Source: Paraglaciecola hydrolytica (GTDB lineage Bacteria > Pseudomonadota > Gammaproteobacteria > Enterobacterales > Alteromonadaceae). From it: a stretch of DNA of 64,000 bases. A program made the position numbers and the translations under genes. The DNA is taken from assembly GCF_001565895.1 (NCBI RefSeq), contig NZ_LSNE01000005.1:634665-698664 (forward strand), given 5' to 3'. This document shows, piece by piece, positions 6,190 through 57,976 of this stretch. Position 1 is the stretch's first letter; the number at the start of each line of letters is the position of its first letter. The notes below the pieces were generated by a model that was given only the letters and a program-made list of their open reading frames with translations, searched no databases and was not told where the DNA came from.

Positions 6190-6219
6190 TTTACTCAAAC
6201 TAATACAGACCTTCATATC

Positions 6220-7227
6220 ATGACTAAACCTATCGTACTTAGCGGCTGCCAGCCATCGGGACAACTTACCATTGGGAACTATATGGGCGCGCTGCGTCAA
6301 TGGGTAGCCATGCAGGATGACAATGATTGTCTATATATGTTGGTGGATTTACATGCCATTACGGTAAGACAGGATCCCAAAGCCCTGCAGCAGGCTTGTT
6401 TAGATGGTTTAGCCCTGTATGTTGCCTGTGGTATCGATCCAGCCAAAAGCACTATTTTTATGCAATCCCATGTAGCAGAACATGCCCAGTTAGCTTGGAT
6501 CATGAACTGTTATACCCAAATGGGTGAGCTCAATCGTATGACGCAATTTAAAGATAAGTCAGCTAAAAACATCAGCAATATTAATGCTGGCTTATATAGC
6601 TACCCTGCGCTGATGGCCGCCGACATATTGCTGTATCAAGCCAACAAAGTGCCAGTGGGTGAAGATCAAAAACAACATCTCGAATTAACCCGCGATATCG
6701 CCACGCGTTTTAATAACATCCACGGTGATATTTTTAAGGTACCTGATCCCTATATTCCGGAATTTGGTGCACGAGTGATGAGTTTGCAAGAACCCACTAA
6801 AAAAATGTCTAAATCGGATGAAAACCCGAATAATTTTGTCGGTTTATTAGAAAATCCTAAAACGATTAGTAAAAAAATCAAACGTGCCATGACTGACTCA
6901 GACGAGCAGGCGCGCATATATTTTGATACCGCCGAAAAGCCTGGCGTATCTAATTTACTTAGTTTGTTATCTTGCGCAACTAATCAATCGGTTGAGTCTT
7001 TAGTTCCTCAGTATGAAGATAAAATGTACGGCCATTTGAAAACCGATGTGGCTGACGCTGTAGTAGCCCTGCTTGAGCCCATTCAACAACGTTATGCCGC
7101 TTTGCGTGAAGACCGCAGTGAATTAAATAAAATCATGGCTGCTGGTGCTGAGCGAGCAAGTGCTAAAGCGCAGGAAACACTTGCCAAAGTTTATGACGCA
7201 GTTGGATTTGTAGCACGGCCTTATTAA
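6220..7227 (+). CDS. trpS: Tryptophanyl-tRNA synthetase
   Basis: 335 residues. The class I HIGH-like motif appears as [13 protein letters not shown] near residue 14, and the KMSKS loop as KKMSKSDEN near residue 194. [15 protein letters not shown] is the tryptophan/ATP pocket segment common to bacterial TrpRS. Charges tRNA-Trp in the cytoplasm. It is transcribed with rpe (30 bp gap) and followed by a clear terminator. Confidence 0.97.
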
Positions 7228-7266
7228 TCCGCTTTGTGCAATAAACAGTAAGTATCTTCATTACAT

Positions 7267-7300
7267 AAGCTTTTTGCCCAACTCAAAAAGCTTTGTTTTT
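7267..7300 (+). terminator. Intrinsic terminator after trpS
   Basis: AAGCTTTTTG (7267-7276), 7-nt loop, CAAAAAGCTT (7284-7293), then TGTTTTT. It separates the rpe-trpS unit from pabA. Confidence 0.8.
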
Positions 7301-42549: not shown

Positions 42550-43617
42550 TTACGCTCTAGTGTTTTTGTTATTGAGGATGTCGTTGTAGTGAACATCACT
42601 CACTTGTTGTAATTTTTCTGCTGCCTGTTCAGGTGTTAAGTCACGCTGTGGTTCAGCCAACATTTCATAACCCACCATAAATTTGCGAACTGTGGCAGAG
42701 CGCAACAAAGGTGGATAAAAATGCGCATGCACTTGCCAATGTTCGGTCTCATCAAGGTTATTTGGAGCCCAATGCCAGCCCATAGAGTAAGGGAAAGAAC
42801 ACTGAAATAAATTGTCGTAGCGGCTGGTTAACTTTTTGATCGCAATAGCCAAATCAGCTTTCTGTTGGGCATTCACATCCACCAAGCGCGCACATTTAAA
42901 CTTGGGTAATAACAAGGTTTCAAATGGCCAGGCTGCCCAATAAGGTACAACTGCGATCCAGTGTTCGGTTTCCACTACAGTGCGGCTACCATCGGCGGAT
43001 TCACGCTGTGCATAATCCAATAGCAAAGCGCTGCCATGTTTAGCAAAATACTTACGTTGATTGGCTTCCGCCTTAGCGACTTCATTAGGAACAAAATCAT
43101 TGGCCCAGACTTGACCATGGGGATGGGGATTTGAGCAGCCCATTGCAGCGCCTTTATTTTCAAAAACCTGCACCCACGCATACTCATTCGATAAGTCAGC
43201 GACTTGCTCTTGCCAAGTTTGAATAACACCTTCCAATTCGGGCAAAGATAATTCAGGCAATGTGAGGTTGTGTGCAGGTGAAAAACAGATTACCCGACTG
43301 GTGCCACGGGCAGCCTGTAAGGTAAATAAGTCATCGTTACTTTGGGCAGAGCTAGGTGTATCTTGCATCAAGGCGGCAAAGTCATTATTAAAAACAAAGG
43401 TGCCACTGTAATCAGGGTTCACTTCACCGTTAATTCGAGTATTACCCGAACATAAATAACATTCAGGATCATGAGCTTGATTAGTATTTACTTGAGGTTT
43501 TTCAACCTGCCCTTGCCAAGGACGTTTAGCACGATGAGGTGAGACCAACACCCATTCATTTAATAAGGGGTTACAACGACGATGAGGATGTTCTGTAGGA
43601 TCAAAAACCATAGTCAC
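42550..43617 (-). CDS. galT: Galactose-1-phosphate uridylyltransferase
   Basis: 355 residues. The active-site motif is [13 protein letters not shown]; zinc-site Cys residues are in [10 protein letters not shown]. The start [37 protein letters not shown] is typical. First gene of galT-galK, divergent from the LacI-family regulator across a 165-bp region with candidate operators. Confidence 0.97.
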
Positions 43618-43657
43618 TTTACCTGCTCAAAATTGATATTACACTTGATATAACAAA

Positions 43658-43673
43658 GGGTACACGTTTTCCC
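43658..43673. promoter_or_regulatory. Candidate operator for the LacI-family regulator
   Basis: GGGTACACGTTTTCCC is an imperfect palindrome centred on CG, with 6 of 8 pairs matching, as expected of a LacI/GalR-type site. The heptamer CACGTTT within it recurs at 43684-43690 and 43773-43779, just before the regulator's own ATG. These three copies suggest control of both galTK and the regulator. Confidence 0.5.
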
Positions 43674-43782
43674 CAATCAGATCCACGTTTATTGTATGAG
43701 GGTATTTATTGATTTTCATGCCATTACATTATAGGTTGTTACGCATGTATAGGATTATTAATAATCAGGTTTCACGTTTACC

Positions 43783-44787
43783 ATGACGACCTTAAAAGAT
43801 ATCGCCAAAGCCGCAGGGGTTTCCCATGCCACTGTTTCAAGGGTGGTGAACAATGGGCCAAAGGTTGGCCCCGTTTTGCGCGATAAAATCCATAAGCTCA
43901 TTATAGAAATGGGCTATCGTCCTAATGCCAATGCTAGGGCGTTAGTCACCAATAAAAGCACCACTATTGGGGTAGTCATTCCGGATGTCTCCGACCCTTT
44001 TTTTGCCACGCTAGCTAACGGCATCGACAAGGTCTCGCGCCAACAAAACATGCAGTTACTTATCAGTACCGGTAGCTTAAGTGCTGAATCCGAGCGTGAA
44101 GCGATAAATTTATTACTTGAGAGACGCTGCGAAACCATCGTCATCCACAGTAAAAAAATAGCAGATGACGAACTGATAACACTGTTTAAGGCCCACCCCC
44201 ACTTTGTATTGATTGACCGCTATATCGCAGACATTAAAGATAGATGTGTATGGTTGGATAATAACGAAGGTGGAAAAATTGCCGCTCGGCACTTACTGGC
44301 ATTAAAACACCGGCAATTTGCCTGCATCACCAGTACGTTTGACATTGATGATCCTAAATTACGCCTGGCTGGTTTTGTGGATGAGCTTGCAAAAGCCAAT
44401 ATCACTTTTGATAGTAAAAATTTAGTGAGTGCAGAGCCGACTTTACAAGGAGGCGAAATCGCCGCGCAGACCTTATTGGCTTCTGGTCAAGATTTTAGCG
44501 CTATCTTTGTTTATAACGATGCGATGGCCATTGGCGCTATTTCAACCTTAGAAGACAACGGCTATTCGGTGCCCAAAGATGTATCGATTATCGGTTTTGA
44601 TGATGTACTATTAGCCCGCTATTCCAGACCTAAACTGACTACGCTGCAATACCCCATCGACCTTATGGCGCAACATGCTGCTCAACTGGCCTTACGTAAC
44701 AGCCAAGAGCCGAGAATTGCGACAAATAAGCTAAAATTCATACCTCAACTGATAAAACGAGAATCAACATCGACATATTTTAAGTAG
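43783..44787 (+). CDS. LacI-family transcriptional regulator (GalR-like)
   Basis: 334 residues: N-terminal HTH with hinge (TLKDIAKAAGVSHATVSRVVNNG) and a sugar-binding core (~60-330) with TIGVVIPDVSDPFFA and DVSIIGFDDVLLARYSRP. Divergent from galTK, so galactose is the probable effector, an inference. A short open remnant continues in the same frame after its stop. Confidence 0.9.
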   Translation: MTTLKDIAKAAGVSHATVSRVVNNGPKVGPVLRDKIHKLIIEMGYRPNANARALVTNKSTTIGVVIPDVSDPFFATLANGIDKVSRQQNMQLLISTGSLSAESEREAINLLLERRCETIVIHSKKIADDELITLFKAHPHFVLIDRYIADIKDRCVWLDNNEGGKIAARHLLALKHRQFACITSTFDIDDPKLRLAGFVDELAKANITFDSKNLVSAEPTLQGGEIAAQTLLASGQDFSAIFVYNDAMAIGAISTLEDNGYSVPKDVSIIGFDDVLLARYSRPKLTTLQYPIDLMAQHAAQLALRNSQEPRIATNKLKFIPQLIKRESTSTYFK

Positions 44788-44793
44788 TTTTAG

Positions 44794-44976
44794 CCGCGAG
44801 GTCTTTTACAACGGTCAATAAACCTATTCAACGAAAGTGTAAAAGCATTTGAATTCAACCAGAATGCCTATAACGGCAAAATCAAAGGAACGTGGTCTCA
44901 TGCAAATGTAAGGAAACCAGGTAAATCGGAGCTGTTTCCACAACCTAACTTAATTGACATGCTGCTTAGCCTGTAA
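44794..44976 (+). pseudogene. Apparent 3' remnant of an unrecognised gene
   Basis: A 60-codon open stretch with protein-like sequence (for example FEFNQNAYNGKIKGTWSHA and SELFPQPNLIDMLLSL) ending in TAA, with no start codon of its own. It is in the same frame as the LacI-family gene, separated by TAG, one codon and TAG. It looks like the C-terminal end of a larger, lost protein; the family is not recognised. Could instead be a chance reading frame. Confidence 0.4.
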
Positions 44977-45241
44977 CTTTATTTTTTAGCCGTAAAATTG
45001 ATTATTAGATTGAGATTCAAGCACGGAACTTTCAAGCATATTACACCATGAATTTTACTAATAACTTACCTACATGTTGCCAACAGCACAGTTGGCAACA
45101 AACACTAGGCTAATGTTGCTCATGTCTAACCTGAATAAATGTTAGCTTTACTTTTTAAAGGATACGCAGTTAACTAATATAAATGCTTCGATACGCCACT
45201 TACAACGTATACCACTTATACACAGCAGGTTGCCAATAGGG
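44977..45241. other. Intergenic region before the MCE locus
   Basis: With the remnant just upstream, this makes a 454-bp stretch without an intact gene. It holds a perfect hairpin, TGTTGCCAAC (45075-45084), loop AGCACA, GTTGGCAACA (45091-45100), with no T run after it. A promoter for the MCE locus is expected but none is obvious. Confidence 0.5.
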
Positions 45242-46129
45242 ATGTCCGTGCAGAGCAGAATTAACCATCTGAGCCATACACTCGCACTTTATACAAAACA
45301 ATTTAAACTATTGTTCGCATACACCTTGTTAAAAAAGCTCAAACATAGGCTAAGGTATTTATCCGCGCTGTTGCAAAAGATAAAGCAGTGTCTTACTACT
45401 TTCCCATATTTACTGTTATTGCCCATATGCTTAGGTGCTTGTACTGCTCATACCAATGGCAATTTGCAATCAGAACAATTACAGCTACAGTGGCAGAAAA
45501 TTGTTAACGAGCCAATCACACCTACCCCACCTTTAACTAACCTACTAAATGAGGCTCTCAGGCAGCAAAATTGGTTAATTGTATGGCATAGTGCCTTGTT
45601 ACTCTGCCAAGTGGAAACCCAGCAAGAACGTAAAAAGATGGCCTGTCAACGAGCTCAATATGCGGTTGAATTATTACCAGATCAGGGGGAGCGACATTTT
45701 CAAACAGAATTAATTTATTATTTACAGTTCCAAGATGCAACAAGCTTAAAACGGGCTGAAACCTTTGCATTTACTCCACAACAAATAACAGCTGTACAAT
45801 TGGCAAAGGGCGAAATCCCCCCTCAAGCGCAACAACGCAGCATTGCAGAAGGTAGTTTGCAACAAGCACAACTTTTATATTTGCTCGGCAAGCAACAAGC
45901 AGATTTGCGCAAACTAGAACAGGCAGCGTTATTATTCCACCAGCATAAACAACGGCATAAGATAGCCGATTGTTATTTTCTAATGGCACAGCTTTATTAT
46001 GCAACTGGTGACAAACCAATGGCCCGTCAATTTGCAGCGCAAAGTCTATTGCTCTTGGATGGCCTGCAAAGTCATGAAGCCCATCAACATGTTAGCGAAT
46101 GGTTTAATGTTTGGTTATCTGCTCGCTAA
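45242..46129 (+). CDS. Helical-repeat lipoprotein of the MCE locus
   Basis: 295 residues from the ATG at 45242 (in-frame TTG at 45230 is also possible). An LGAC lipobox places the lipidated Cys at residue 67, after an unusually long basic/hydrophobic lead. A TTG at 45371 would give a normal 24-residue lipoprotein signal and may be the true start. The mature part is Gln/Leu/Ala-rich and helical, TPR-like (LLYLLGKQQADLRKLEQAALLF; CYFLMAQLYYATGDKPMARQFA). No family recognised. It overlaps the permease gene, so it likely serves the same system. Confidence 0.6.
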   Translation: MSVQSRINHLSHTLALYTKQFKLLFAYTLLKKLKHRLRYLSALLQKIKQCLTTFPYLLLLPICLGACTAHTNGNLQSEQLQLQWQKIVNEPITPTPPLTNLLNEALRQQNWLIVWHSALLLCQVETQQERKKMACQRAQYAVELLPDQGERHFQTELIYYLQFQDATSLKRAETFAFTPQQITAVQLAKGEIPPQAQQRSIAEGSLQQAQLLYLLGKQQADLRKLEQAALLFHQHKQRHKIADCYFLMAQLYYATGDKPMARQFAAQSLLLLDGLQSHEAHQHVSEWFNVWLSAR

Positions 46130-46910
46130 CATTCCTCTCAAACTCGCGGCTATTTTGCATGCCAGCGGTGACTTATTTGGTTTGTTCTTTTTAAGTGTAA
46201 AACGTTGTTCCACCTTAATTTCAGCGCCCAAACGTGCCATATTCTGGTTATTATTTAAACGCCAACTGTTCAACATCGCCTTAAAATCCATTTATATCAA
46301 CGTATTGATTGCTTTACTGTTGAGCTCGTTAGTCATGTCCAGAGCCTATACTTTATTACCTGAAGGCATGTTGTTCAGCGACTATTACGCCAAATTTTTT
46401 GTCACTGTGGTGGTAAGAGAAGTAGGCCCGATGTTTTCAGCATTGATTTTAATTGCACGCTCTGCAACCGCAATTACATTCGAAATGGGTCACCTTAAAT
46501 TACACAACCAATTTGAAGCATTAAAAGCACAAGGCATGGATCCTCTTGCTATTTTTTTACTGCCAGTACTGTTTGCCTTCCCCTTAAGCTTATTAATGAT
46601 GCAGCTTATTTTTGTATTGGTGTGTTTGTTTTCTTCTTATTTGTTTATTAACTTTTCCTATCAAGCAGATCTACCATTGCAACATTTTGTACAACTTATC
46701 AGCACGCAAATTTCTGCGGTAGACGTAATAACCAGTATATTAAAGGTGTTGTTTGGCGGCATATTGATAGGTTTAATTTGTATTTATTTTGGCAGTAAAG
46801 TAGGCAATCGCTTTACTGAAATTTCGCGTGCTATTGCCTCGGCCACCTCACTACAACTATTACTTGTTGTAAGTATTAATGTCGCGTTGTCAATCGTGGG
46901 CTATTTATGA
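46089..46910 (+). CDS. MlaE-like ABC permease (second copy)
   Basis: 273 residues from the ATG at 46089; the frame is open back to 45999 and an ATG at 46107 is an alternative. All overlap the preceding gene. About five or six membrane helices. The coupling segment VVREVGPMFSALILIARSATAITFEMG matches MlaE, followed by ALKAQGMDPLAIFLLPVLFAFPLSL. It overlaps the next gene by 4 bp (ATGA). It is more divergent than the mlaE at 28423-29202 and belongs to a separate MCE transporter. Confidence 0.82.
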   Translation: MLANGLMFGYLLANIPLKLAAILHASGDLFGLFFLSVKRCSTLISAPKRAIFWLLFKRQLFNIALKSIYINVLIALLLSSLVMSRAYTLLPEGMLFSDYYAKFFVTVVVREVGPMFSALILIARSATAITFEMGHLKLHNQFEALKAQGMDPLAIFLLPVLFAFPLSLLMMQLIFVLVCLFSSYLFINFSYQADLPLQHFVQLISTQISAVDVITSILKVLFGGILIGLICIYFGSKVGNRFTEISRAIASATSLQLLLVVSINVALSIVGYL

Positions 46911-47557
46911 CGCAGTTTGAGCTGGTCAATTTTTCACTGCAGTTTAATGAGATCCGTTTGTTTTCTGACGTTGCTTTAAGCATTAAGGGCGGGCAAACAT
47001 TTTGTATTGAAACTGCGGTATTAGATGGTGGCTCATCATTTCTGAAATGTTGCGCCGGCATCCATAAGCCAAGCGGTGGTCAAGTATTACTCAACAAACT
47101 CAGTGTGCATGATATGCCAGATGAACAACGATTTAGAACGGTGGCATATTGTTATGAGCACGGTGGTCTCATTAGTACATTTAGTAATTACAACAATGTT
47201 GCATTTCCACTGTTATACAATTCAGTATTAAATAAAAAAAAAGCCAAACAACGCATCTTAGAAATGGCAGACTTGCTAGACCTTAGTCATTTATTGGCCC
47301 TAGAGCCTCATCAACTAAATGATGTACAAACGCGCTTAATCAATTTATTGAGGGGATTATGTATACAACCCCAAGTCTTGTTAATTGATGAATTGCAGGC
47401 AGGAATGTCAGACGAGATGTTAGACAATACCTTAGCCGTAATAGCACAACAGCAAAAAGAGATTGGCTTTGCCACTATCATGACAACCAGCTCTGGTGAC
47501 GAAATTGGCTTTGCAGACCAGATATTGACCATTAATGAATGTAAGTTACAGGAGTAA
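46907..47557 (+). CDS. Degenerate MlaF-like ABC subunit
   Basis: 216 residues with ABC-ATPase layout but broken active-site motifs. Against MlaF, the Walker [10 protein letters not shown] becomes TAVLDGGSS (residues 36-44), losing the Lys; the LSGGM signature becomes LNDVQ (137-141); the switch His region reads MTTSSGDE (192-199). Walker B VLLIDE (157-162) is kept. The reading frame is intact and overlapping on one side and 3 bp from the MCE gene on the other. It is probably a non-hydrolysing structural subunit, unless a partner such as MlaF supplies the activity. Confidence 0.8.
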   Translation: MTQFELVNFSLQFNEIRLFSDVALSIKGGQTFCIETAVLDGGSSFLKCCAGIHKPSGGQVLLNKLSVHDMPDEQRFRTVAYCYEHGGLISTFSNYNNVAFPLLYNSVLNKKKAKQRILEMADLLDLSHLLALEPHQLNDVQTRLINLLRGLCIQPQVLLIDELQAGMSDEMLDNTLAVIAQQQKEIGFATIMTTSSGDEIGFADQILTINECKLQE

Positions 47558-47560
47558 TTG

Positions 47561-48562
47561 GTGAGTTTTTCAACTAATCACGCATTTAACCCTTCTTGGC
47601 AAGACAAGTTGATTGGCCTAGTCATCGTGCTCGGGATTATTGCCTCAGTGTTGTGGTGGATCATAAATCTTAAAACGGTGGATACTCGATATTGGTTGCC
47701 AGTAGAGGCCACACTCAGCGAAAGTTATGGCATAGGTAAAGACACACCAATCAAAGTTTCGGGCATAGCCATAGGAAAAGTACAAAATATTGAATTGACC
47801 GATAAAGCCCAAGTAAGATTAAAAATCTTACTTAATAGACAATATATGCGTTTTTTTCACACAGATAGTCGCTTAGAAATCGACTCGGCCATCGCACTAA
47901 ATTCAATGTTGTCTGGCAACTCCCTGTCTTGGCATATTGGTCTAAGTGAAGATGAATTGACAGCTGGTGCAAGCGTACCCGTCACTGAGCCACAATCCAT
48001 GAATGCCTTATTTCAAAAATTAGATCTCGAAGGCTTGTTAACTACCTTATCCAATATCATGGCTAACTTAGACAGGGTCAGCCAAACACTCAGTAATAAC
48101 CAACAAGCCATCAATTTGACCCTACAAAATTTGGCCAACAGTAGCGATACACTAAGCCAATCATTACAAAAACTGCCACCATTGCTGGACGCTGGCAACT
48201 TTTTAATCAGCAATGTTAATCAGGCCGTAAATAATATTGATCCACAAATCACCCACAGCCTGCAAAATTGGAATAGAACCCTCAATGATTCTCAGCAGCT
48301 AATGCAAAATAGCAATCATCTCATCAGTAATTTAAATGAAACAGCAACACTTGCCCCTGATACCTTAATGGCAACTAATACAGCCCTGTATGAAGTTACA
48401 AAATTAACTAAAACTCTGCAGTCACACTGGTTATTTGCTTCTCCTAATGAAAACCCCGAAACTAAAACTGAAGTCCCTATTATTTATCCCGCAGATTCGA
48501 CGTTATATTCCAATCAAGAGCAAACAAATACATCGTCAAAATTATCACTAGAAAAACCGTAA
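47561..48562 (+). CDS. MCE (MlaD-like) domain protein
   Basis: 333 residues from the GTG at 47561, chosen for the GGAG at 47551-47554; a TTG at 47558 is less likely. One membrane helix (~17-37), one MCE domain (~45-135, YGIGKDTPIKVSGIAIGKVQNIEL), then a long helical Asn/Gln/Leu-rich region (~150-285) and a low-complexity tail. The long C-terminus is like needle-forming or bridge MCE proteins and would project from the inner membrane. Last gene of the 4-gene locus. Confidence 0.85.
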   Translation: MSFSTNHAFNPSWQDKLIGLVIVLGIIASVLWWIINLKTVDTRYWLPVEATLSESYGIGKDTPIKVSGIAIGKVQNIELTDKAQVRLKILLNRQYMRFFHTDSRLEIDSAIALNSMLSGNSLSWHIGLSEDELTAGASVPVTEPQSMNALFQKLDLEGLLTTLSNIMANLDRVSQTLSNNQQAINLTLQNLANSSDTLSQSLQKLPPLLDAGNFLISNVNQAVNNIDPQITHSLQNWNRTLNDSQQLMQNSNHLISNLNETATLAPDTLMATNTALYEVTKLTKTLQSHWLFASPNENPETKTEVPIIYPADSTLYSNQEQTNTSSKLSLEKP

Positions 48563-48760
48563 TTTAATATCAGAAGGCTAAAGAAATTGACTTTACCAGT
48601 GAAAGTCGACTAGTTTTTAGACACCGTTGGTGTTTGCTGTATAAATCAATCGGAACTACGTCAGGAATTGCCAGTGCCCCCTGAGAAAGGGAACTTAAAA
48701 ATGTTGCCACTCTCATTTTTATGAGTGGTAAATTGATAACGAAGGAAAAAGGAAATAACA

Positions 48761-49354
48761 ATGCAATTAAAACACATAATACTCGGCGCAATCATAGGTA
48801 CATCGCTTTCCGCTTGTGGTGCTACATCAAAAAAAATGCCTGAAGAAGCACCTAAAAATAAGTTGACTATGAATATTCCATCCTGGGTGCTAAACCCTGT
48901 GGTCGAAGATGGCATAGCCGCCACAGACTGCGTAAAATTTTCAGGCAACATGTCAATTGATCAAAAAATGGCCAGCGCGAATGCTAGGCTAGCCTTGGCA
49001 CAACAAATCGAAATTAAAGTAGAGGGTTTGGATAAAACTTATGCCAGCAGAGTTGATTCAAATGATGAAATGACTACGGGTACAAATTTTAGCTCAGTAT
49101 CCAAACAATTAACTCAACAACGATTAAATGGCTCAAGAGTCATCAAATCCGATATCGTTGATATTGGTGGTCAAAACCATTTTTGCGCGATGATGACCTT
49201 AAGTCCGACGGCAACCAAAGAATTGTTTGACGCCATTATGGAGCAAAGCAAACGTAACATTAACCCACAAGATGAAAGGTTTTTGTATCAAGAATTTAAA
49301 GCGGCCAAAGCACAAGAAGAGCTAGATGTTACTATTAAAAAACTGACAAACTAA
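48761..49354 (+). CDS. LPP20-like lipoprotein
   Basis: 197 residues; lipobox LSAC gives Cys19. The mature part resembles the LPP20 fold: IPSWVLNPVVEDGIAATDC, then a helix with ANARLALAQQIEIKVEGL and a C-terminal strand HFCAMMTL. Related domains occur in flagellar FlgP and LPP20 of Helicobacter, but there are no flagellar genes nearby. AAGGAAAAAGGAAA precedes the ATG. First gene of the plus-strand group 48761-52807. Confidence 0.7.
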   Translation: MQLKHIILGAIIGTSLSACGATSKKMPEEAPKNKLTMNIPSWVLNPVVEDGIAATDCVKFSGNMSIDQKMASANARLALAQQIEIKVEGLDKTYASRVDSNDEMTTGTNFSSVSKQLTQQRLNGSRVIKSDIVDIGGQNHFCAMMTLSPTATKELFDAIMEQSKRNINPQDERFLYQEFKAAKAQEELDVTIKKLTN

Positions 49355-49433
49355 TTATAGGGTTCATGGAAAGGTGGTGATGACCAGAAAGCCACGCTGC
49401 CTGTATGTTAGACATTGAATAAGGAAGATAAAA

Positions 49434-50267
49434 ATGCAACATGAGCCAGAAGATAACGGTGCAATTAAGTTGAATGGCGATGATGTTATTGCCATTCAGG
49501 AGGCGCAAAAAAATAGCTTTTGGCGCCGAGTGCAAACATCAATAATGATGACGGCGGCCTTAATGATTTCTGCCGGTCAATGGAACGACACCAAAGAAAT
49601 CGCAATTACAATATATGAAAGCATTCTGGCCAATTTTACCCACAATATTGAGTACGACCAGATTAAACAAATCAACGTAGGTAATAGCCTTGAATATGTA
49701 AAGTCGATGGTGGGTGAACCTTATGTGATTAAACGTTCAAAACTGAATCCTGAAATTCAATTCCACTATTATTCCAAAGAAAAATACGATCTCACTCTGG
49801 TGTCACAAGACGAACAAATTGTTGGTTATACCGTGATCAGTAAAGTTGATGACTTCACGCCAATTATCCCTTTTGCAGAAAACTTAGGCAGTTCAACTAT
49901 TGAACAGGCTAATCAAGATCCGCGCATTTATGCACTTGATAACTCAAATTTATTGTACTTTATTGATTCAAAAATGCTGGGTAAACAGCAAATGTTTTTA
50001 ACTCAAATTCGTGGTTATGTAGAGTACGGCGCTAATCTTGCTCCAGCTTCGGCAACAACCATGGCACGTGAGAAAGTGAGCGAAGTGTTGACCTCCTTGA
50101 TTGAAAAAGAGACGTATTCAGCAACTGAAGAAGAGACATTGGAAGCCGTTCATTTGGTACGATCTTCAATTTACCCTAACTTTTATTCTATGACGAACAT
50201 TGAACCTGCTTTTATCGCTGAGGCATTGTTAACGCGTTATGAATATCAACAGTTTACCCAAAGCTAG
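49434..50267 (+). CDS. ETEC_3214-like membrane protein
   Basis: 277 residues. A cytoplasmic head (~30) leads to one weak membrane helix (~34-50, VQTSIMMTAALMISAG), then a periplasmic domain with INVGNSLEYVKSMVGEPYVIK and YYSKEKYDLTLVSQDEQIVGYTV, a pattern reminiscent of ETEC_3214-type domains. Function unknown. AAGGAAG precedes the ATG. It is 8 bp ahead of the transglycosylase gene. Confidence 0.55.
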   Translation: MQHEPEDNGAIKLNGDDVIAIQEAQKNSFWRRVQTSIMMTAALMISAGQWNDTKEIAITIYESILANFTHNIEYDQIKQINVGNSLEYVKSMVGEPYVIKRSKLNPEIQFHYYSKEKYDLTLVSQDEQIVGYTVISKVDDFTPIIPFAENLGSSTIEQANQDPRIYALDNSNLLYFIDSKMLGKQQMFLTQIRGYVEYGANLAPASATTMAREKVSEVLTSLIEKETYSATEEETLEAVHLVRSSIYPNFYSMTNIEPAFIAEALLTRYEYQQFTQS

Positions 50268-50275
50268 GAGCCAAC

Positions 50276-51673
50276 ATGAAACCTGCAGGTATCTCAGTCA
50301 TTCTCTTACTTACATTATTTGACGTATCCGCCCAAGAAACCGATCCTTTTGCAGAATTAGAAGCTGAAATACAAAAACAAAGTCCTCAAGCACTCGCCCG
50401 AGAACAGGTTGAATTTGAAGTGTGGAAGGAAAAATATTTAGCAGAATATCAACAATTTAGAGTAGAACACTTTAAACGACTTGATGATATTCGTGATAAA
50501 TTGATCAGTAGATGGGGTGAGGCCGAGATCTCGTCGGAAAGTAAATACGTCATTTACGATGAAAGGGGTGACAGTAAAACGGTCTTGGATTATGAAAATA
50601 ATCAAATTGTCATCAGTATCTTACATGAAGATGATGAGACAGTTAGCCCTAAGCAAATTTCACAGGCAATACAACAAGCCACAGAGTCCAACACCAAGTC
50701 AGCCAATAGGCCCCCACCCCTAGAGCAATTCACTGGCAAAACTTTAGATAAATCAACCCTCAATCAATTGGTAAATAAGGCGATAGAGAATACAGAAACA
50801 CACAAACCCCTTGTCGAAAATAACTTAGAACAGCTCATTTCCAATGAAGTGGCCAACATCAAGCGCCAGACAGAAGCTCAGAAAAACCAAGTAGAAATCA
50901 TGTTAGACATTGTTTCTGTAGAATCGACAGAGGTAGATGGTTCGGCTAAGAATAGTGAAGACTTGATCACTCGCCAAAAGCAGGAAATAGACAAAGAGCA
51001 ACAAGCTCGTCTGCATAGATTGCAGGAGCAAAGCAAAAAATTTAACAATAACAAAGTAGAACGAGCTGAATTAGCTAAAAAACAGATCACCACTTTTCAC
51101 ATTCCTCTGGCAGAAAAAGGTGACATGCAAAAAGCAGAGCCCTATTTAAAAGAAGTCATTCAACAGAGTAAACGATGGGAATTACAGCCCAGTTTACTGC
51201 TGTCGATCATTCACACCGAAAGCTACTTTAACCCACAAGCAAAGTCGCATATTCCGGCTTTTGGCCTGATGCAGATAGTCCCAAGATCAGCAAGTATTGA
51301 TGTAAATCGTTTTTTATTTGATAAAGATGAAGCCATGGCCGAGGCCTATCTTTATAGCCCACAACAAAATATTGAAACAGGAGTGGCCTACGTCCACATA
51401 CTCAACAGCCGATATTTGAAAGGAATCAACGACCCTTTAAGCCGTATGTATTGCACTGTCGCTGCTTACAATACGGGTAGTGGCAATGTCGCCAAAACCT
51501 TCAATAAAGACAAATCACGCAACATTAATAATGCCTTGAAAATAATCAATGGCCTAAGTCCAGAGCAGGTTTACCAACGATTAGTTGAAGATTTACCCTA
51601 TGAAGAAACACGAAATTATTTAAATAAAGTCATCAACAGAAAGAGTATTTATTTAAAAGTTGATGCAATTTAA
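50276..51673 (+). CDS. MltC-like lytic transglycosylase
   Basis: 465 residues. Signal peptide (cleavage near VSAQE; no lipobox, unlike MltC). N-terminal DUF3393-like region (~30-150, FEVWKEKYLAEYQQFRVEHFKR), a charged Gln/Glu-rich linker (~150-285), then a SLT domain (~300-455) with catalytic Glu in SIIHTESYFNPQA, FGLMQIVP and AAYNTGSGNV. It should cleave peptidoglycan to anhydro-muropeptides. Longer than E. coli MltC (359). The linker suggests a soluble periplasmic enzyme in a special complex. Confidence 0.85.
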   Translation: MKPAGISVILLLTLFDVSAQETDPFAELEAEIQKQSPQALAREQVEFEVWKEKYLAEYQQFRVEHFKRLDDIRDKLISRWGEAEISSESKYVIYDERGDSKTVLDYENNQIVISILHEDDETVSPKQISQAIQQATESNTKSANRPPPLEQFTGKTLDKSTLNQLVNKAIENTETHKPLVENNLEQLISNEVANIKRQTEAQKNQVEIMLDIVSVESTEVDGSAKNSEDLITRQKQEIDKEQQARLHRLQEQSKKFNNNKVERAELAKKQITTFHIPLAEKGDMQKAEPYLKEVIQQSKRWELQPSLLLSIIHTESYFNPQAKSHIPAFGLMQIVPRSASIDVNRFLFDKDEAMAEAYLYSPQQNIETGVAYVHILNSRYLKGINDPLSRMYCTVAAYNTGSGNVAKTFNKDKSRNINNALKIINGLSPEQVYQRLVEDLPYEETRNYLNKVINRKSIYLKVDAI

Positions 51674-51796
51674 TGTAAAAAAGTTGTGGTTCTGGCTGGT
51701 AACTTACAAAAAATATTAGCCAGCTCAGAACATGTAAATAGTAACCATTTTATTCAATGTCAGATGCTACTGTCACAAAAGCAAGGAAGGGATTTA

Positions 51797-52810
51797 ATGC
51801 TATTAAGCACCAGTTTAAATTTTGTTCATATAATTAAAAATATCCTACTCTCAAGGTTTTTTACCCTTCTCATCATGTTGTTCTCAGCAAACTTGTATGC
51901 TCTACCTGACTGGGTTAAGCAACCCCCCTTGGATGACGACAAGTTTATTTATGGTATTGGTTCTGGCATTGATTTCGAAACAGCTAAAAAAAATGCACTC
52001 AGTGACATTGCCGCAAAATTTAATGCCAATGTTAAAGAGAGTTATGTTTCTGCTCAGCGTGTATTAAATGAAAAAATAACCAGTGATGTAAAAATTAACA
52101 CCCAAGTCGAAGTTCAAGGAACTCGGCTTAATCATTTCCACGTGTCCAAAAGTGACACAGAAAACAATATTTATTGGACTCTTGTACAATTAGATCGCTT
52201 AGCCTTCGCCAAAGATTTATATGCACATTGGTTCAAAGTAGACAAAGAAATGGCAACAAACATCAAGCAAATAGGCACGGTTCCATCACTACTGCACATT
52301 GACAAACTAAAACCCTTGCTGGAAAAAAATGAGCAACTTAAAGCCATATTAGTACAATCGAACTTTATTCAACCGAGAACTGACTTTAAAACGGCTTTTT
52401 CTCTTTATAACCATTACCAAAGTTTATTAAATACCCTGTTAGACAATCAGTTTGTTTTAGTGACTTTCAACGACGTAGACGACTCTTTGGCCGCGGTTAT
52501 TAAGGAACAATTGACCGCCAAAGGTTTAAAACTGTTAGACCAACAAAATACACAAGCTCCCTATTCCGTCATCGCAGTTTCCCTAACTAAACAACAGCGA
52601 GAAGATGATAGAAATGCCTTTATTAGCCAAATTGAACTTTATATAGAAACCACTGCTGACAATAACGAAAATATTGGTTCAAACCACTTTAGCGCACGAG
52701 GTAGAGACTATGTTTCACACGTTGCCTCTTTTGAAAAAGCAACCATTAGCATCCAACGGCAATTGAATAAATTGCCGTTGGATGCACTATTAAATATTAG
52801 TAGCAAATAA
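51797..52810 (+). CDS. LPP20-like exported protein
   Basis: 337 residues from the ATG at 51797, which has AAGGAAGGG; the frame is open to 51686. Signal peptide ends near LYALPDW. LPP20-like domain at the mature start: LPDWVKQPPLDDDKFIYGIGSG, then ETAKKNALSDIAAKFN. The C-terminal half (~190-330) contains FVLVTFNDVDDSLAAVIKEQL, of unknown type. The stop touches that of the convergent lipoprotein gene with no gap. Confidence 0.65.
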   Translation: MLLSTSLNFVHIIKNILLSRFFTLLIMLFSANLYALPDWVKQPPLDDDKFIYGIGSGIDFETAKKNALSDIAAKFNANVKESYVSAQRVLNEKITSDVKINTQVEVQGTRLNHFHVSKSDTENNIYWTLVQLDRLAFAKDLYAHWFKVDKEMATNIKQIGTVPSLLHIDKLKPLLEKNEQLKAILVQSNFIQPRTDFKTAFSLYNHYQSLLNTLLDNQFVLVTFNDVDDSLAAVIKEQLTAKGLKLLDQQNTQAPYSVIAVSLTKQQREDDRNAFISQIELYIETTADNNENIGSNHFSARGRDYVSHVASFEKATISIQRQLNKLPLDALLNISSK

Positions 52811-53641
52811 TCACCAATCCACCGTCGATAAAAACTCATCTGTCGTATCTGAAGGTAAATCTAAGTTCTGTTGATTGGCATACTCAATAAAATAAGTACC
52901 TGTTTCATACAAGCTTTTGCCATGTAGAGGCAGTCCAGCAACAATGTCATAGATCTTTTTGCCATCCCCTAACACCGAATTAAACGATCCTGAGACAGCA
53001 TCCATTGCTGAGCCTAAATAATCTGATTTGGCTGATTTAGCAGTGGCAGAAAGCTTGTCTGACGTTTTATCTACATATTTGACCATTGCTTTTTTAATTT
53101 TCATAGTGGTATAGGTGCCACTTAAATAGGTTGTGATGCCCAAAATTAAACTTTTTTTCTGCTCGGGTGCCAAGGAATCCACTTGTGCGCTAGCGGCTTT
53201 TATTTCTTTACTAGCCGCTTGTGAGTATTCACGATGCTGCGCAATTTCTTTTTTACTTAAACTGGTACCACCAAGTAGGATGGCTTTTTCTTTTAACAGA
53301 TTTTCAGTCGTTGATTTCAGCGCCAAGGCATGTGACAAGCACAATTGAGAACGATTAATGAGAACTGACGCCAAGGTATAAGTATTCATCGCTTCGTTGC
53401 CAAACTCATCAGACTTAGACTCAAGATCTTCTGCTTGTGAATATTTAATCAAGAAGCTTTTGATATTATCTACTGTTAACGTATCACATTGATCCCCTGA
53501 GATAAGTGGTTCATCTGCCCATATGGGGCGAGAAGATTCTTTAGAAGACAGATTACTCATTAAATCTTCTGTTGCGGCACAACCCACTAAGGTCATTAAT
53601 ATACCAATAGCTAACGCGCTCGAATGTATGCTCTTCATCAT
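52811..53641 (-). CDS. Hypothetical lipoprotein
   Basis: 276 residues; lipobox LVGC gives Cys21. Mature part is mostly helical: ILLGGTSLSKKEIAQHREYSQAASKEIKAASAQV, then MKIKKAMVKYVDKTSDKLSATAK and a Gly/Asp-rich turn. It ends in TVDW. No family recognised. Last gene of the minus-strand group, 4 bp after the next gene upstream, convergent with the LPP20-like gene. Confidence 0.6.
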   Translation of the reverse strand: MMKSIHSSALAIGILMTLVGCAATEDLMSNLSSKESSRPIWADEPLISGDQCDTLTVDNIKSFLIKYSQAEDLESKSDEFGNEAMNTYTLASVLINRSQLCLSHALALKSTTENLLKEKAILLGGTSLSKKEIAQHREYSQAASKEIKAASAQVDSLAPEQKKSLILGITTYLSGTYTTMKIKKAMVKYVDKTSDKLSATAKSAKSDYLGSAMDAVSGSFNSVLGDGKKIYDIVAGLPLHGKSLYETGTYFIEYANQQNLDLPSDTTDEFLSTVDW

Positions 53642-53645
53642 TATT

Positions 53646-54788
53646 TTACCTTATTGTTTTTGCACTTAATTTTGCTACTAATGTGTTTGCTACGTCCTCT
53701 GCGGCTAATTTCAACGCATTATTGCGTGCCACCATTACCGTTGGCCCCATCCCGAAATACTGTACAGGTCCTACTTTAGCCACCGCAGAACCACGTTTTA
53801 ACACCGCAAGTACTTGAGCCGTAACCGAAACGGGCACTTTGTAATTACCTGTCACGCTGTCTATCAAGGTTTTATCAATGTCCAAGGTACCAATGGCTAA
53901 GTATTCTACTGGGTCTTCTAAGCCCTTAAGCCCCTTCAACGCATCACTTTTTGTGACAGAGGTTAAATCGTCGCCGCGCTCATAATCTTTTATAAAATTT
54001 TTCACCTCTAACAAATAACCCGTTTCTTCCTCTAACAAACCCGCGTCTATCACATTAAAATTGGCATTTGTAAATACATCGCCCATGGCAACATCAACTT
54101 CGTTAGTGGTGGCGACACGCCAAACCACTTCATCGGCAAATTCTTTGTTGCGGGTATTAGTGGATACTGTTTGGGTTTGGCTTTTACCTATGGCAGATTG
54201 ATTGTTAGAACTGTTTTGTTCAATATTATTTTTCTGCCCTTTAGTGATACTGCTACTTTGCTCTGAATAGCTTTCACTACCAGCATGTTCACGTGCAACA
54301 AAGACAAAGGTAATGTATGCATTTCCACTTTGATCATCAGTAAGGCTGATTAACTTATCTAACATCTTCACTTCATTAATTTTTGCCCGTAAGGTGATAC
54401 GGACTGTTTTACTCTCTTTATTTTTTTCTGTATCAATGATGTCAAAACCAAGTACATAAGATTTGATATCGCTATCGATCTCGTCTTTCACCTTTTTATA
54501 GTTGCTGTAATGGGCTTTGTGTTGCGTAACGACCCACGACTCCACGGCATTTTGCAAGGCTTTACTTTCAGCTTGCCGCGTTTCATCTTTATCAACACTC
54601 CAAGAATAAGACACTTCGCCCACACCTACTGCTTCCGCTGTGGATAAAGTTGCATTTGCCTTTGCAACCGACACATCTCCTGCAGCGCTAATGAGTGTTA
54701 TTGCCGATGCGTTTAACTTACTTGTCACTAAGCATGTGGTAATGCAAAAAGTGTAAATTAAGGTCATTAAAAGCTGATGTTTTTTCAC
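53646..54788 (-). CDS. Exported protein with LPP20-like region
   Basis: 380 residues from a GTG at 54788 preceded by AAAGGAATT. Signal peptide to ~NASA. The N-terminal mature domain (VGVGEVSYSWSVDKDETRQAESKALQNAVES...) resembles LPP20/FlgT-N domains. A Ser/Asn/Gln-rich linker (~170-215) leads to a C-terminal domain (~220-378) with EYLAIGTLDIDKTLIDSVTG and ARNNALKLAAEDVANTLVAKL. Function unknown; two-domain architecture recalls FlgT, but no flagellar context. Confidence 0.6.
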   Translation of the reverse strand: MKKHQLLMTLIYTFCITTCLVTSKLNASAITLISAAGDVSVAKANATLSTAEAVGVGEVSYSWSVDKDETRQAESKALQNAVESWVVTQHKAHYSNYKKVKDEIDSDIKSYVLGFDIIDTEKNKESKTVRITLRAKINEVKMLDKLISLTDDQSGNAYITFVFVAREHAGSESYSEQSSSITKGQKNNIEQNSSNNQSAIGKSQTQTVSTNTRNKEFADEVVWRVATTNEVDVAMGDVFTNANFNVIDAGLLEEETGYLLEVKNFIKDYERGDDLTSVTKSDALKGLKGLEDPVEYLAIGTLDIDKTLIDSVTGNYKVPVSVTAQVLAVLKRGSAVAKVGPVQYFGMGPTVMVARNNALKLAAEDVANTLVAKLSAKTIR

Positions 54789-54822
54789 TGTTCAATTCCT
54801 TTAGTAGTTGATAGATAGGGTG

Positions 54823-56013
54823 TTATTTGGCGCTGAACAACTCCTGTTTAACGGTAAATTTTCCATAGGCTTGATTATCTTTCGCATGGGATTTAAACCA
54901 TTTTTTGTTAGGAGAACCGAGTTGTTCAACGAGCTCATCAATAAGCACTTCGATCACATCATGAAAAGCTGACCAGTCATCGATTTGTGTCATATTTGCG
55001 CTAACTAACTTTGGTACCGCATATTGAAATACCTCGTTAATAAAGACTTTGCCCGAGTGTTGTTGTGACATGCTCAAAGCAAGTCGACTGGCATACATCA
55101 AGTCGTCTTTGTAAGGCGCTTTTTTCAAATCCAACAGCTCTAGCGAAAATACATAATCTGGTGTTGGTAGATTAAGATTGAATACCGAACCATTAGAAAA
55201 TCTACCGGCCATTTGATTGCCAATCGCATACCCCTTAGTAAAAGGCAGCACAGAAATATTATATTGATGGGCTAAACGGGCAGAAAAATATTGTCCAATA
55301 AACTGGTTAAAACGCACAGCGGTAATATTTTGAGGCATAAATACTTGGACGTTTTCACTGCTACTGACTTGTTCAAGTTGGAACCTAAGAGGTTTACTCA
55401 AGTTAATCTTGGCTGAACCAAGCAAATTAAACGCCATCGTTAACAAACTGTCGCCGCCATCAAGCCCTAAATACAATTCAGAAAATAGACGGGGTAACTG
55501 CTCCTGATAATTAAGCTCTTTGGCGACGACATGGTTTTTAGCCATGCTCAGTGGAATATTTGCGATCAACGTCATGCTAGCAAAATCAAAAAAGAATAAT
55601 TGCGCCCCAGCTTCGACTATTATTTTGCGATTATTACCAATCACCTCAGTGCTGACATTTTCACTTTCAAAGGCCAGTGCCATTGCTATGGATTGGCCCT
55701 TTTTTAGGTCGGCTAAGCCAAAATGCAGATTAAAATGTTGTGGTGAACTTTGTTGTATAAGTTGATTAAAGCGCTGATCTAATAAACCAACTGCATTAAT
55801 TGCTTGATTGATGGACAAGGCGTAAGGATAGTTTGTTTTTATTTGGTCAAAATTGCCTAAATAAACAATACCAGAATAGAAAACGTTAGGACGATAAGAT
55901 GATGCAGAACCTTGAGTAGAGGCATGACTAGCAATACAAATAAAGGCACAGACAACAAAACACACAAGATTAAATAATGTTGTGTTATAAGACTTCCGTA
56001 TCATTGGGTTCAT
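54823..56013 (-). CDS. Exported hypothetical protein
   Basis: 396 residues; a second ATG at 56004 (MIRKSYN) is an alternative. Signal peptide to ~HAS. No domain recognised. Mixed alpha/beta pattern, with NLPTPDYVFSLELLDLKKAPY and a C-terminal helix FHDVIEVLIDELVEQL. First gene of the minus-strand group, sharing a 101-bp divergent promoter region with the papain-like protease. Confidence 0.6.
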   Translation of the reverse strand: MNPMIRKSYNTTLFNLVCFVVCAFICIASHASTQGSASSYRPNVFYSGIVYLGNFDQIKTNYPYALSINQAINAVGLLDQRFNQLIQQSSPQHFNLHFGLADLKKGQSIAMALAFESENVSTEVIGNNRKIIVEAGAQLFFFDFASMTLIANIPLSMAKNHVVAKELNYQEQLPRLFSELYLGLDGGDSLLTMAFNLLGSAKINLSKPLRFQLEQVSSSENVQVFMPQNITAVRFNQFIGQYFSARLAHQYNISVLPFTKGYAIGNQMAGRFSNGSVFNLNLPTPDYVFSLELLDLKKAPYKDDLMYASRLALSMSQQHSGKVFINEVFQYAVPKLVSANMTQIDDWSAFHDVIEVLIDELVEQLGSPNKKWFKSHAKDNQAYGKFTVKQELFSAK

Positions 56014-56114
56014 TAATTACCTAGCATTTAATTATTAACCAACTGGGGTTATATTATGTAAAGTAAAATGAATATACAATCAACAATGCACATAAAAAGC
56101 ACAGGAAGGAATCA

Positions 56115-57338
56115 ATGCAATCTTCTTTTTTTTACCGCCTTATTTTGTCGATTTTGCTCAGTTCAACGATCCTTTTCACTTTCGTAAGTGCCCAAGAATA
56201 TCAAGCCTTGCCCCATACCAAACCCCAAAACCAAAGCAAATATACCTTGTTTATCGTGTCAGGATTAATGCAAGAAATGGGCATTGAACTGCCTGCCCCT
56301 CCCGAACAAAAACCAAACAATGATGAGCAAAAGGATTTTTTCTCCGATGACTTTTTTGCCGACAATGAGCAAAGTTACGATGAAATTAAACAGTCGATGG
56401 AAAACACTTTTGCAGATACGAATAAAAAATGGCATGAAGAATATCAAGAGACAGTGGCACGATGGGAGAAAGCAAGAGCTGATTTTCTAACTAAAGTAGA
56501 GCAATATGAAAACGCTACATTCGATTTCGATAATGTAGAAAAAGTAAATGATCCTGAGAGTAGTTCTCCCGCCCAACAAAATTTGAATATAAACACGATG
56601 CAAGCAGGTGATTTTTATGTCATTCCAGGTGCATTGGATATTGCTATTAGGAATCAAGCGAGTAGAGGTACTTGTGCTGCGTTTGCTGGTGTAAGAGCGA
56701 TAGAAGTCGTATTGAACCAGAATGACATACGTAAAGATTACTCAGAACAACATTTTTATTGGATGAGTAAACCTAAGTGTAAAGATCCTGCTTGCGCTGG
56801 TACCAAGGAAAACCAAGGATCATCTTTTGTTAACGGTCTTATAGCCTCTAAGATTTATAAAACCGGTTTGTTGCCTGAAGATAAATGCCCTTATGTTGCC
56901 TATGGAGATCCCACTAATGAGACTCAAACACCACTTTCTGGCTGCAGAGCAGTGCCCGGTGTAAAAGCTAAAGACTTTGTAGCGGATGTAGCACTTAACC
57001 AATTGCTTAATGAAATAAGTGCTAATCGACCTGTGATGAGTGGATTTACTCTGTCTGATAATTTCTCTTTAGGTAAGGGCTTTGTCAGCCTCGCAGATGA
57101 AGGAAAATACGATAATAAGCGTAATAGTCACAGCGGAGGCCACGCCATATTACTGGTTGGATTTATTCGATTACCTGAAACCATGGCCAGTGAAGGACGT
57201 TTTTGCGCTATCACAGCCAATAGTTGGGGAGATGGTTGGGGCCGCGGAGGATATGGCTGTTTGACCGAAAATTGGATGAAAAAACACAGTCTCGGACATG
57301 CTTCTTTGCAGTCTGTTGAGCTTTTAACTGCATTATAA
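56115..57338 (+). CDS. Exported papain-like (C1-type) cysteine protease
   Basis: 407 residues. Signal peptide to ~VSAQ. An acidic helical propeptide-like region (~40-160), then a C1-type fold with Gln181 and Cys187 (RNQASRGTCAAFAG), His343 (GGHAILLVGF) and Asn369 (ANSWGDGWG), the complete papain catalytic set. The six Cys in CxxxxC-type positions could form disulfides. Secreted or periplasmic. AGGAAGGA precedes the ATG. The next gene begins 12 bp later. Confidence 0.88.
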   Translation: MQSSFFYRLILSILLSSTILFTFVSAQEYQALPHTKPQNQSKYTLFIVSGLMQEMGIELPAPPEQKPNNDEQKDFFSDDFFADNEQSYDEIKQSMENTFADTNKKWHEEYQETVARWEKARADFLTKVEQYENATFDFDNVEKVNDPESSSPAQQNLNINTMQAGDFYVIPGALDIAIRNQASRGTCAAFAGVRAIEVVLNQNDIRKDYSEQHFYWMSKPKCKDPACAGTKENQGSSFVNGLIASKIYKTGLLPEDKCPYVAYGDPTNETQTPLSGCRAVPGVKAKDFVADVALNQLLNEISANRPVMSGFTLSDNFSLGKGFVSLADEGKYDNKRNSHSGGHAILLVGFIRLPETMASEGRFCAITANSWGDGWGRGGYGCLTENWMKKHSLGHASLQSVELLTAL

Positions 57339-57350
57339 AAAGGAAAAACC

Positions 57351-57959
57351 GTGAATTTAATCGAACACCCACGTCTATATAGATTGTTAGGTAGTATGGC
57401 AGATTTAACTCCCGACCTGTGGCCACAAGTGGAGCAGGATGTTTGGGCGATGTTCGAACAAACTAAAGCTGTGTTGGTAACTGATATGTCTCATTTTTCC
57501 AAAGTGACAAAAAAGCATGGCATTATTTATTACCTTGGCATGATCAAACGAATGCAAGATATTATTGCTATGGCGGTCACCAAACATAATGGCACCTTGA
57601 TCAAGTTTCTTGCTGACAACTCTTTTTCGATTTTTAACACCGTAGATGATGCCTTATATTGCATCATTGAGATCAACAAAAAGATGAAAATTGACAATCT
57701 TAAGACACCTGAAATTTGGGATATTGAGCTTTGTACCGGGATCGATTTTGGTAAAATACTGAATATTAATGATCAAGATCTCTTTGGTGATGCCGTAAAT
57801 CTCGCCAGTAAATTAGGCGAAGATACGGCTGAACCTTGGGATGTATTGCTAACTCAAAGAGCCTTCTCTATGTTATCTCAACATCAATATACTTTTACCC
57901 AATTACAGGTCATGCAATCTGATGTATCGATAGACACTTATAAATTGGCGAATGAATAA
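57351..57959 (+). CDS. Class III nucleotide-cyclase-like protein
   Basis: 202 residues from a GTG with AAAGGA at good spacing. A single cyclase homology domain: metal Asp45 (VLVTDMSHFS) and Asp89 (KFLADNSFSIF), base-selecting Lys85 and Asp143, and Asn150 in LFGDAVNLASKL. The transition-state Arg is Lys154, so activity may be weak or lost. No membrane or sensor domain. Coupled to the protease gene by a 12-bp gap. cAMP is the more likely product if active. Confidence 0.75.
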   Translation: MNLIEHPRLYRLLGSMADLTPDLWPQVEQDVWAMFEQTKAVLVTDMSHFSKVTKKHGIIYYLGMIKRMQDIIAMAVTKHNGTLIKFLADNSFSIFNTVDDALYCIIEINKKMKIDNLKTPEIWDIELCTGIDFGKILNINDQDLFGDAVNLASKLGEDTAEPWDVLLTQRAFSMLSQHQYTFTQLQVMQSDVSIDTYKLANE

Positions 57960-57976
57960 CAACTTAAATTCGTATA

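Follow-up and report, generated by a model that had tools for sequence, protein, structure and literature searches.

What brings nine closely packed genes, most of them coding for putatively exported proteins, together in the genome of Paraglaciecola hydrolytica? They occupy positions 48761..57959 of the stretch of DNA analysed here (64,000 nucleotides of contig NZ_LSNE01000005.1, hereafter the window). Our results showed that this block is a mosaic of two recurrent modules, A and B, and of accessory genes, rather than a chance pile. These two non-flagellar modules of FlgT/CsgG/LPP20 type, joined with a periplasmic protease and a cyclase-like protein, may form an envelope assembly, a proposal to which we would give slightly less than an even chance. 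The nine open reading frames (ORFs), named P1 to P9, were found exactly where the initial annotation of the window had placed them, and its convergent junction and 101-bp divergent gap were likewise confirmed by the ORF calls. The organization of the block is as follows:

48761..49354, + strand: P1, LPP20-type lipoprotein of module A (ORF; family profile match to Lpp20; lipobox by eye)
49434..50267, + strand: P2, ETEC_3214-domain protein of module A with one N-terminal anchor helix by eye (NF043066, E 2e-41)
50276..51673, + strand: P3, exported SLT lytic transglycosylase of module A (PF01464, E 2.1e-24; Glu315)
51686..52810, + strand: P4, exported LPP20 protein of module B type (PF02169, E 1.6e-9; tree)
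52811..53641, - strand: P5, lipoprotein of module B (BLAST relatives; profile match to the betaproteobacterial third gene)
53646..54788, - strand: P6, FlgT-like two-domain protein of module B (predicted model)
54823..56013, - strand: P7, exported protein of module B, from a family without name (relatives at 31 loci)
56014..56114, no strand: divergent P7/P8 intergenic region of 101 bp (ORF coordinates; same arrangement in locus L045)
56115..57338, + strand: P8, exported papain-type cysteine protease (PF00112, E 2.3e-12; catalytic residues)
57351..57959, + strand: P9, short cyclase-like protein, no signal peptide, doubtful catalytic activity (PF00211, 30.9 bits)

Seven of the nine proteins displayed a signal peptide or a lipobox and P2 a single N-terminal anchor helix (all by eye), and it is in this sense that the eight exported proteins of the initial annotation hold. 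Gaps between neighbouring genes amount to 79 bp (P1-P2), 8 bp (P2-P3), 12 bp (P3-P4), 4 bp (P5-P6), 34 bp (P6-P7) and 12 bp (P8-P9), and the two convergent groups meet at 52810/52811 with 0 bp between the P4 and P5 stops. For P4, the GTG at 51686 is a less likely start than an ATG at 51797, whose signal peptide looks better by eye; the latter would bring the P3-P4 gap to about 123 bp. The earlier assignments of P2 (ETEC_3214), P3 (SLT transglycosylase), P8 (Peptidase_C1) and P9 (Guanylate_cyc) were borne out by profile matches. No Pfam family above cut-off was recorded for P5, P6 and P7; P2 had none in Pfam and one in NCBIfam. A promoter shared within the 101-bp gap, also postulated earlier, gained no support from a scan for sigma-70-like sites: none fell inside the gap, and the scanned region held 17 of them against a shuffle mean of 28.

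Module A (P1-P2-P3) recurred in many genomes of the GTDB family of the window genome, a family that also includes Alteromonas. P2, which matched the ETEC_3214 model NF043066 with 141.3 bits (curated cut-off 35), was present in 29 of the 395 family genomes, own genome included. All 28 other P2 loci, from 15 genera, were annotated, and genes were counted up to 7 kb from P2. P1 or its relative was found in 28/28 loci and P3 in 27/28, the exception sitting at a contig end; an LPP20 protein occurred in 22 (P4 type in 19) and a CsgG-like lipoprotein in 23, none of the latter being recognised in the window block. P8 was encountered in five of these loci (three genera) and P9 in a single one. Two Pseudoalteromonas plasmid records carry the same module A set, and P2 together with P3 was also found in two genomes of the wider class. 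At the protein level, P1 scored 18.8 bits against the Pfam LPP20 family (PF02169, cut-off 25.9), below cut-off, and its family profile matched the solved Lpp20 structure 5ok8 (E 3.3e-10). The catalytic Glu315 of P3 was kept in all 33 aligned sequences (window plus 32), and this protein, in which the SLT domain is present, reached 164.6 bits against the MltC equivalog NF008670, under its cut-off of 375. The CsgG-like family of module A resembled Pseudoalteromonas CsgG proteins (profile probability 87) and was less like the betaproteobacterial partner described below (63); Pfam CsgG was not among the matches of its members (18 of 19 scanned). As a side observation, a cluster of seven EAL-type signalling proteins (by eye), drawn from five groups, lay at most 8 kb from P2 (L004 4850-7090 and relatives), which may be due to chance since such proteins are common.

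Module B consists of P7-P6-P5 facing P4. A tblastn search of plasmids with P6 matched Cupriavidus and Caballeronia replicons, and an alignment of three P7 proteins matched 31 loci in species genomes, mostly from Burkholderiales, with additional occurrences in a Chromobacterium, in Alteromonas lipolytica and in some metagenome-assembled genomes (MAGs) labelled otherwise. P6 directly followed P7 in 30 of these loci, the remaining one being cut by a contig end. The betaproteobacterial set is composed of P7, P6, an exported protein of about 220 residues and, instead of P4, a CsgG/FlgT-like protein of about 470 residues. Counted as clusters c2 and c3 of our own gene calls, the former occurred in 28/31 loci (split in two in L024) and the latter in 27/31 (upstream in L035 and L038). 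Among the 22 members of the larger protein scanned (of 29; E up to 1), Pfam CsgG matched 19, LpoB 14 and FlgT_C one (E 0.021); a weak TsaP match was also recorded (E 0.005). We know of no description of this four-gene set. Its fourth protein (L002 13799-15151 and relatives) was further seen to resemble a three-domain FlgT, with an N-terminal domain by eye, a CsgG/TolB-like middle and a weak C-terminal TsaP match.

P5 proved related to the betaproteobacterial third gene by profile comparison (probability 97, E 8e-11) and its BLAST relatives amounted to five rows from four genomes; a direct BLAST link to the same third gene was unconvincing (E 0.027 for a single comparison). The tail-to-tail arrangement of P7-P6-(P5 or counterpart) with P4 was also found in four other gammaproteobacteria, namely Alteromonas lipolytica, G760 (one gene lying between the P5 side and P4), G653 and a Pseudomonadales MAG. 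G544 carries P7-P6-P5 and no P4 inside its 20 kb, and in G519, G670 and G700 a CsgG/FlgT-like gene replaces P4. P4 itself scored 38.5 bits against LPP20, above the cut-off, and its family profile matched HP1454 (E 2e-12). In a tree of 24 P4 proteins, the window P4 grouped with the four tail-to-tail ones (support 99/98), despite being transcribed behind P1-P3. P7 displayed no Pfam match and no credible sequence match in the PDB. Profile comparisons gave no link between the CsgG/FlgT-like partner and P4, between P6 and either of these, between the partner and the Pseudoalteromonas CsgG proteins, or between P7 and any partner tested. Iterated profiles for the betaproteobacterial third and fourth genes drifted onto LPP20 proteins and were left out of the counts. 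In three family members (L138-L140, ~6100-7300), a set of betaproteobacterial type is extended by two small exported genes that come after the CsgG/FlgT-like gene.

Close relatives of the protease P8 (E <1e-100) occurred in seven of the 395 family genomes, own included; ten further matches (E 5e-7 to 1e-3) had been set aside before counting as generic papain-type proteins. In five of the six other genomes P8 lies beside module A and in one (G544) beside P7-P6-P5, where locus L045 displays the same divergent P7/P8 arrangement as the window. Gln181, Cys187, His343 and Asn369 were kept in all eight aligned sequences (window plus seven), fitting the catalytic set of papain family C1. No P8 was found in the plasmid search. 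In L045 (10837-13014), P8 is followed by a 257-residue exported protein and by a 725-residue membrane protein with a cyclase domain and, by eye, a CHASE2-like N-terminus; a cyclase other than P9 is thus found close to the corresponding position. A second P8 copy was seen in Alteromonas lipolytica (L112 9090-10322); no further block gene was labelled in that 20-kb locus.

P9 exceeded the Guanylate_cyc cut-off of 21.9 bits. Within the scope of its search, the annotated loci and the plasmids, the sole close relative (54% identical) stood behind P1-P2-P3 in L115 (G762), and the plasmid matches were distant cyclases of rhizobia and other alphaproteobacteria. The position of the transition-state Arg, which we take to be essential for class III cyclase catalysis, is occupied by Lys in P9 and by Val in its relative; the purine-site Lys is kept in P9 and is Asn in the relative. 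Judged from these residues, catalysis by P9 is doubtful. The controlling role given to the cyclase by the initial annotation is weak, P9 occurring at one of the 28 other P2 loci and the presumably essential residue being changed in both copies.

Away from the window, modules A and B are linked through P8 and by co-occurrence. Alteromonas lipolytica (G658) and G760 carry both modules, about 80-110 kb apart. Among the 395 family genomes, own genome left out, P2 was found in five of the six genomes with P8 (p 7e-6), P8 in three of the seven with P6 (p 7e-5) and P2 in three of the seven with P6 (p 0.009); these are plain hypergeometric p values that ignore kinship, and G658 and G760, which belong to one genus, count in all three.

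Does P6 make the block a flagellar structure? Its predicted model contains a TolB/CsgG/PelC-like domain that matches the fold of the FlgT middle domain, and resembles FlgT across both its domains (residues 51-379). The chain stops after the middle-like domain and apparently lacks the third, C-terminal domain of FlgT. The same model suggests that the N-terminal fold is related to the LPP20 type, a family (PF02169) for which P6 gave no Pfam match. Three LPP20-like proteins had been claimed in the initial annotation: P4 stood above the cut-off, P1 fell below it and is related by its family profile, and the third, presumably P6, relies on this predicted fold. P6 is not the FlgT of the genome, which was located at G000:C9:399167, on contig C9, by an FlgT_M match above cut-off (E 3e-35); a second LPP20 gene, below cut-off, lies beside it at C9:400333. 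None of the 97 relatives tested, of which 21 belong to the same genus, carried P6. The Pfam CsgG model found no match in the whole genome; as it also misses the CsgG-like family of module A, a CsgG-like partner may therefore be encoded elsewhere in the genome.

The block lies at the right end of a larger segment (the names galT, arcB, LacI and MCE were assigned by eye):

43606..57973, no strand: 14.4-kb stretch between galT-like and arcB-like genes, missing in two congeners

Also located in this stretch are a gene for a LacI-type regulator and an MCE/Mla-like ATP-binding cassette (ABC) operon. The surroundings of the arcB-like gene were compared in four congeners: in G005 and G001 about 130-160 bp separate the galT-like gene from the arcB-like one, the stretch is missing along with the gal genes in G018, and G012 displays a different neighbourhood that is not informative. 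Since all 22 genomes of the genus, that of the window among them, carry the arcB-like gene, none of the 21 other congeners carries the MCE-type gene that adjoins the block on the left, and the flanks lie close together in G005 and G001, the block belongs to a 14.4-kb insertion here or to a loss in the others. Likewise, P2 was found in no same-genus genome among the 395 searched. GC (guanine plus cytosine) content is 0.392 in the stretch and 0.388 in the block, with 0.423 and 0.416 in the flanks. The LacI-family gene (43783-44787) marks the left end of the stretch, and the MCE/Mla-like operon (45230-48562) lies directly left of the block; near the modules of relatives, its proteins had two weak ATPase matches only.

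Several observations weigh against a joint assembly of the nine products. Modules A and B adjoin in the window only, and P5, P6 or P7 occurred in none of the 28 other family P2 loci. The initial annotation had expected one conserved gene set, and had named independent occurrence of its genes as the finding that would speak against it; linked groups do recur in other genera, yet as two modules and accessory genes, and the modules are mostly found without one another, which partly goes against the initial proposal. The co-occurrence tests, moreover, are not fully independent because query rows came from counted genomes (G043 and G490 in the P2 and P8 query alignments, G544 in those of P8 and P6, G658 in that of P6). 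The unique junction and these shared rows lower our estimate, and we still regard it as fairly probable that modules A and B work together. Unrelated cargo genes gathered in one island would agree with that junction, with a stretch of slightly lower GC content missing in congeners and with the MCE-like operon alongside; such a gathering is nevertheless improbable, as every one of the nine genes is matched in a different genus by a relative that neighbours the relative of another block gene.

The data establish gene linkage, protein families, the conserved catalytic residues of P3 and P8, a P6 model with likeness to TolB/CsgG and FlgT, and the lack of the stretch in two congeners. From these we infer export and anchoring, ring formation, joint action and a role in transport or anchoring. 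The best reading of the block is a non-flagellar ring or conduit in the periplasm below the outer membrane, equipped with a peptidoglycan cutter and a protease of its own, because P6 is FlgT-like and the block encodes such a cutter. The envelope structure proposed in the initial annotation is thereby supported, together with the recurrence of the linked groups. Its ring-like nature comes close to an even chance; a service as conduit or anchor for an exported substrate is rather doubtful. A flagellar H-ring or divergent flagellar accessory, which had been the named alternative, could invoke the likeness of P6 to FlgT across both domains and the LPP20-type fold of FlgP reported in the available part of PMC12222027. 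It is very improbable, and the block is probably not an H-ring, because the genome's own FlgT lies elsewhere, side by side with the second LPP20 gene; no flagellar family was named in the block by Pfam or NCBIfam, and P6 and P2 were absent from the congeners searched. The block might instead be a peptidoglycan-remodelling set without any conduit, in which a dedicated transglycosylase is regulated from the outer membrane by lipoproteins of CsgG/LpoB/PelC-like and LPP20 type. This is unlikely: Pfam and NCBIfam named no penicillin-binding protein or amidase family in the block, tblastn detected no P3 relative in the 31 module B loci (L009-L039), and this reading does not account for the protease. 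A CsgG-type apparatus that secretes or anchors a surface fibre or adhesin would fit the CsgG-like lipoproteins near module A (23/28 other family loci) and the CsgG/FlgT-like protein near module B (27/31 loci). It appears quite unlikely, since no CsgG-like channel was recognised in the block, Pfam CsgG was missing from the genome, and no fibre subunit was recognised, although no search was aimed at CsgA/CsgB or other fibres.

In a non-flagellar assembly, P7, P6, P5 and P4 would gather beneath the outer membrane as a ring or platform in which P6 supplies the FlgT-like subunit, and P5 and P1 would be held by lipid anchors. With P3 opening the peptidoglycan locally and P2 providing the tie to the inner membrane, a passage or anchor could span the envelope; P8 may trim a part of the assembly or its passenger, and P9 would be an accessory, possibly a degenerate nucleotide sensor. 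More tentatively still, the block may represent an undescribed non-flagellar envelope-spanning machine distributed across gamma- and betaproteobacteria. Its core would comprise a ring protein of FlgT type, a member of the orphan family P7 and a partner of CsgG or LPP20 type. Here it would be coupled to another undescribed module, widespread in Alteromonadaceae, which contributes its own inner-membrane anchor and peptidoglycan cutter and, in some lineages, a dedicated protease. FlgT, FlgP and Lpp20 have been described as components of flagellar motors or as antigens. If the proposal is true, a FlgT/LPP20 relative outside flagella with its own peptidoglycan cutter would reveal a non-motility role and a possible origin of flagellar rings. 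The ETEC_3214 domain would likewise acquire a gene context, its function being left open in the accessible part of the only paper found (PMC5554520).

No described system came up in our searches, in agreement with the initial annotation, and the gene sets of both modules are apparently undescribed. Open-licence PMC literature yielded no paper joining LPP20, CsgG and transglycosylase, the LPP20 family and CsgG, FlgT, FlgP and CsgG, or CsgG, lytic transglycosylase and Pseudoalteromonas; with a looser combination, the 15 titles listed of 8,914 dealt with other systems. Among known systems, Pycsar is approached by P9 alone, which matched the PADLOC PycC model (E 2.9e-7), the sole PADLOC match of the block. 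Unlike Pycsar, the block encodes no recognised effector: its eight other proteins matched no PADLOC model, PycTM and PycTIR included (E up to 1), in a scan that covered the block proteins and not the neighbouring histidine kinase gene. In contrast to the CsgG/PelC/LpoB/TolB-N superfamily, no pore protein was recognised in the block. The P2 domain family was founded on ETEC_3214 of E. coli H10407, for which a predicted membrane helix and regulation by CfaD are reported (PMC5554520, available part); its locus differs, the flanking genes coding for a hypothetical protein and a GTPase, and no LPP20, CsgG or transglycosylase gene is annotated in the 50 kb displayed. As regards Helicobacter, the P1 family matches Lpp20 (HP1456) and the P4 family HP1454. 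The available passages of PMC11756786 mention neither a transglycosylase nor an ETEC_3214 partner for these proteins; they describe interactions of HP1454 and HP1456 with flagellar accessory proteins, the significance being unclear. There remain FlgT and FlgP, of the Vibrio H-ring and the Campylobacter basal disk. We know of no flagellar counterpart of P7 or P5. The block is not near recognised flagellar genes and P6 apparently lacks the third domain; yet the P6 model resembles FlgT and P1 and P4 are of LPP20 type, the fold shared by FlgP, Lpp20 and FlgT according to the part of PMC12222027 available.

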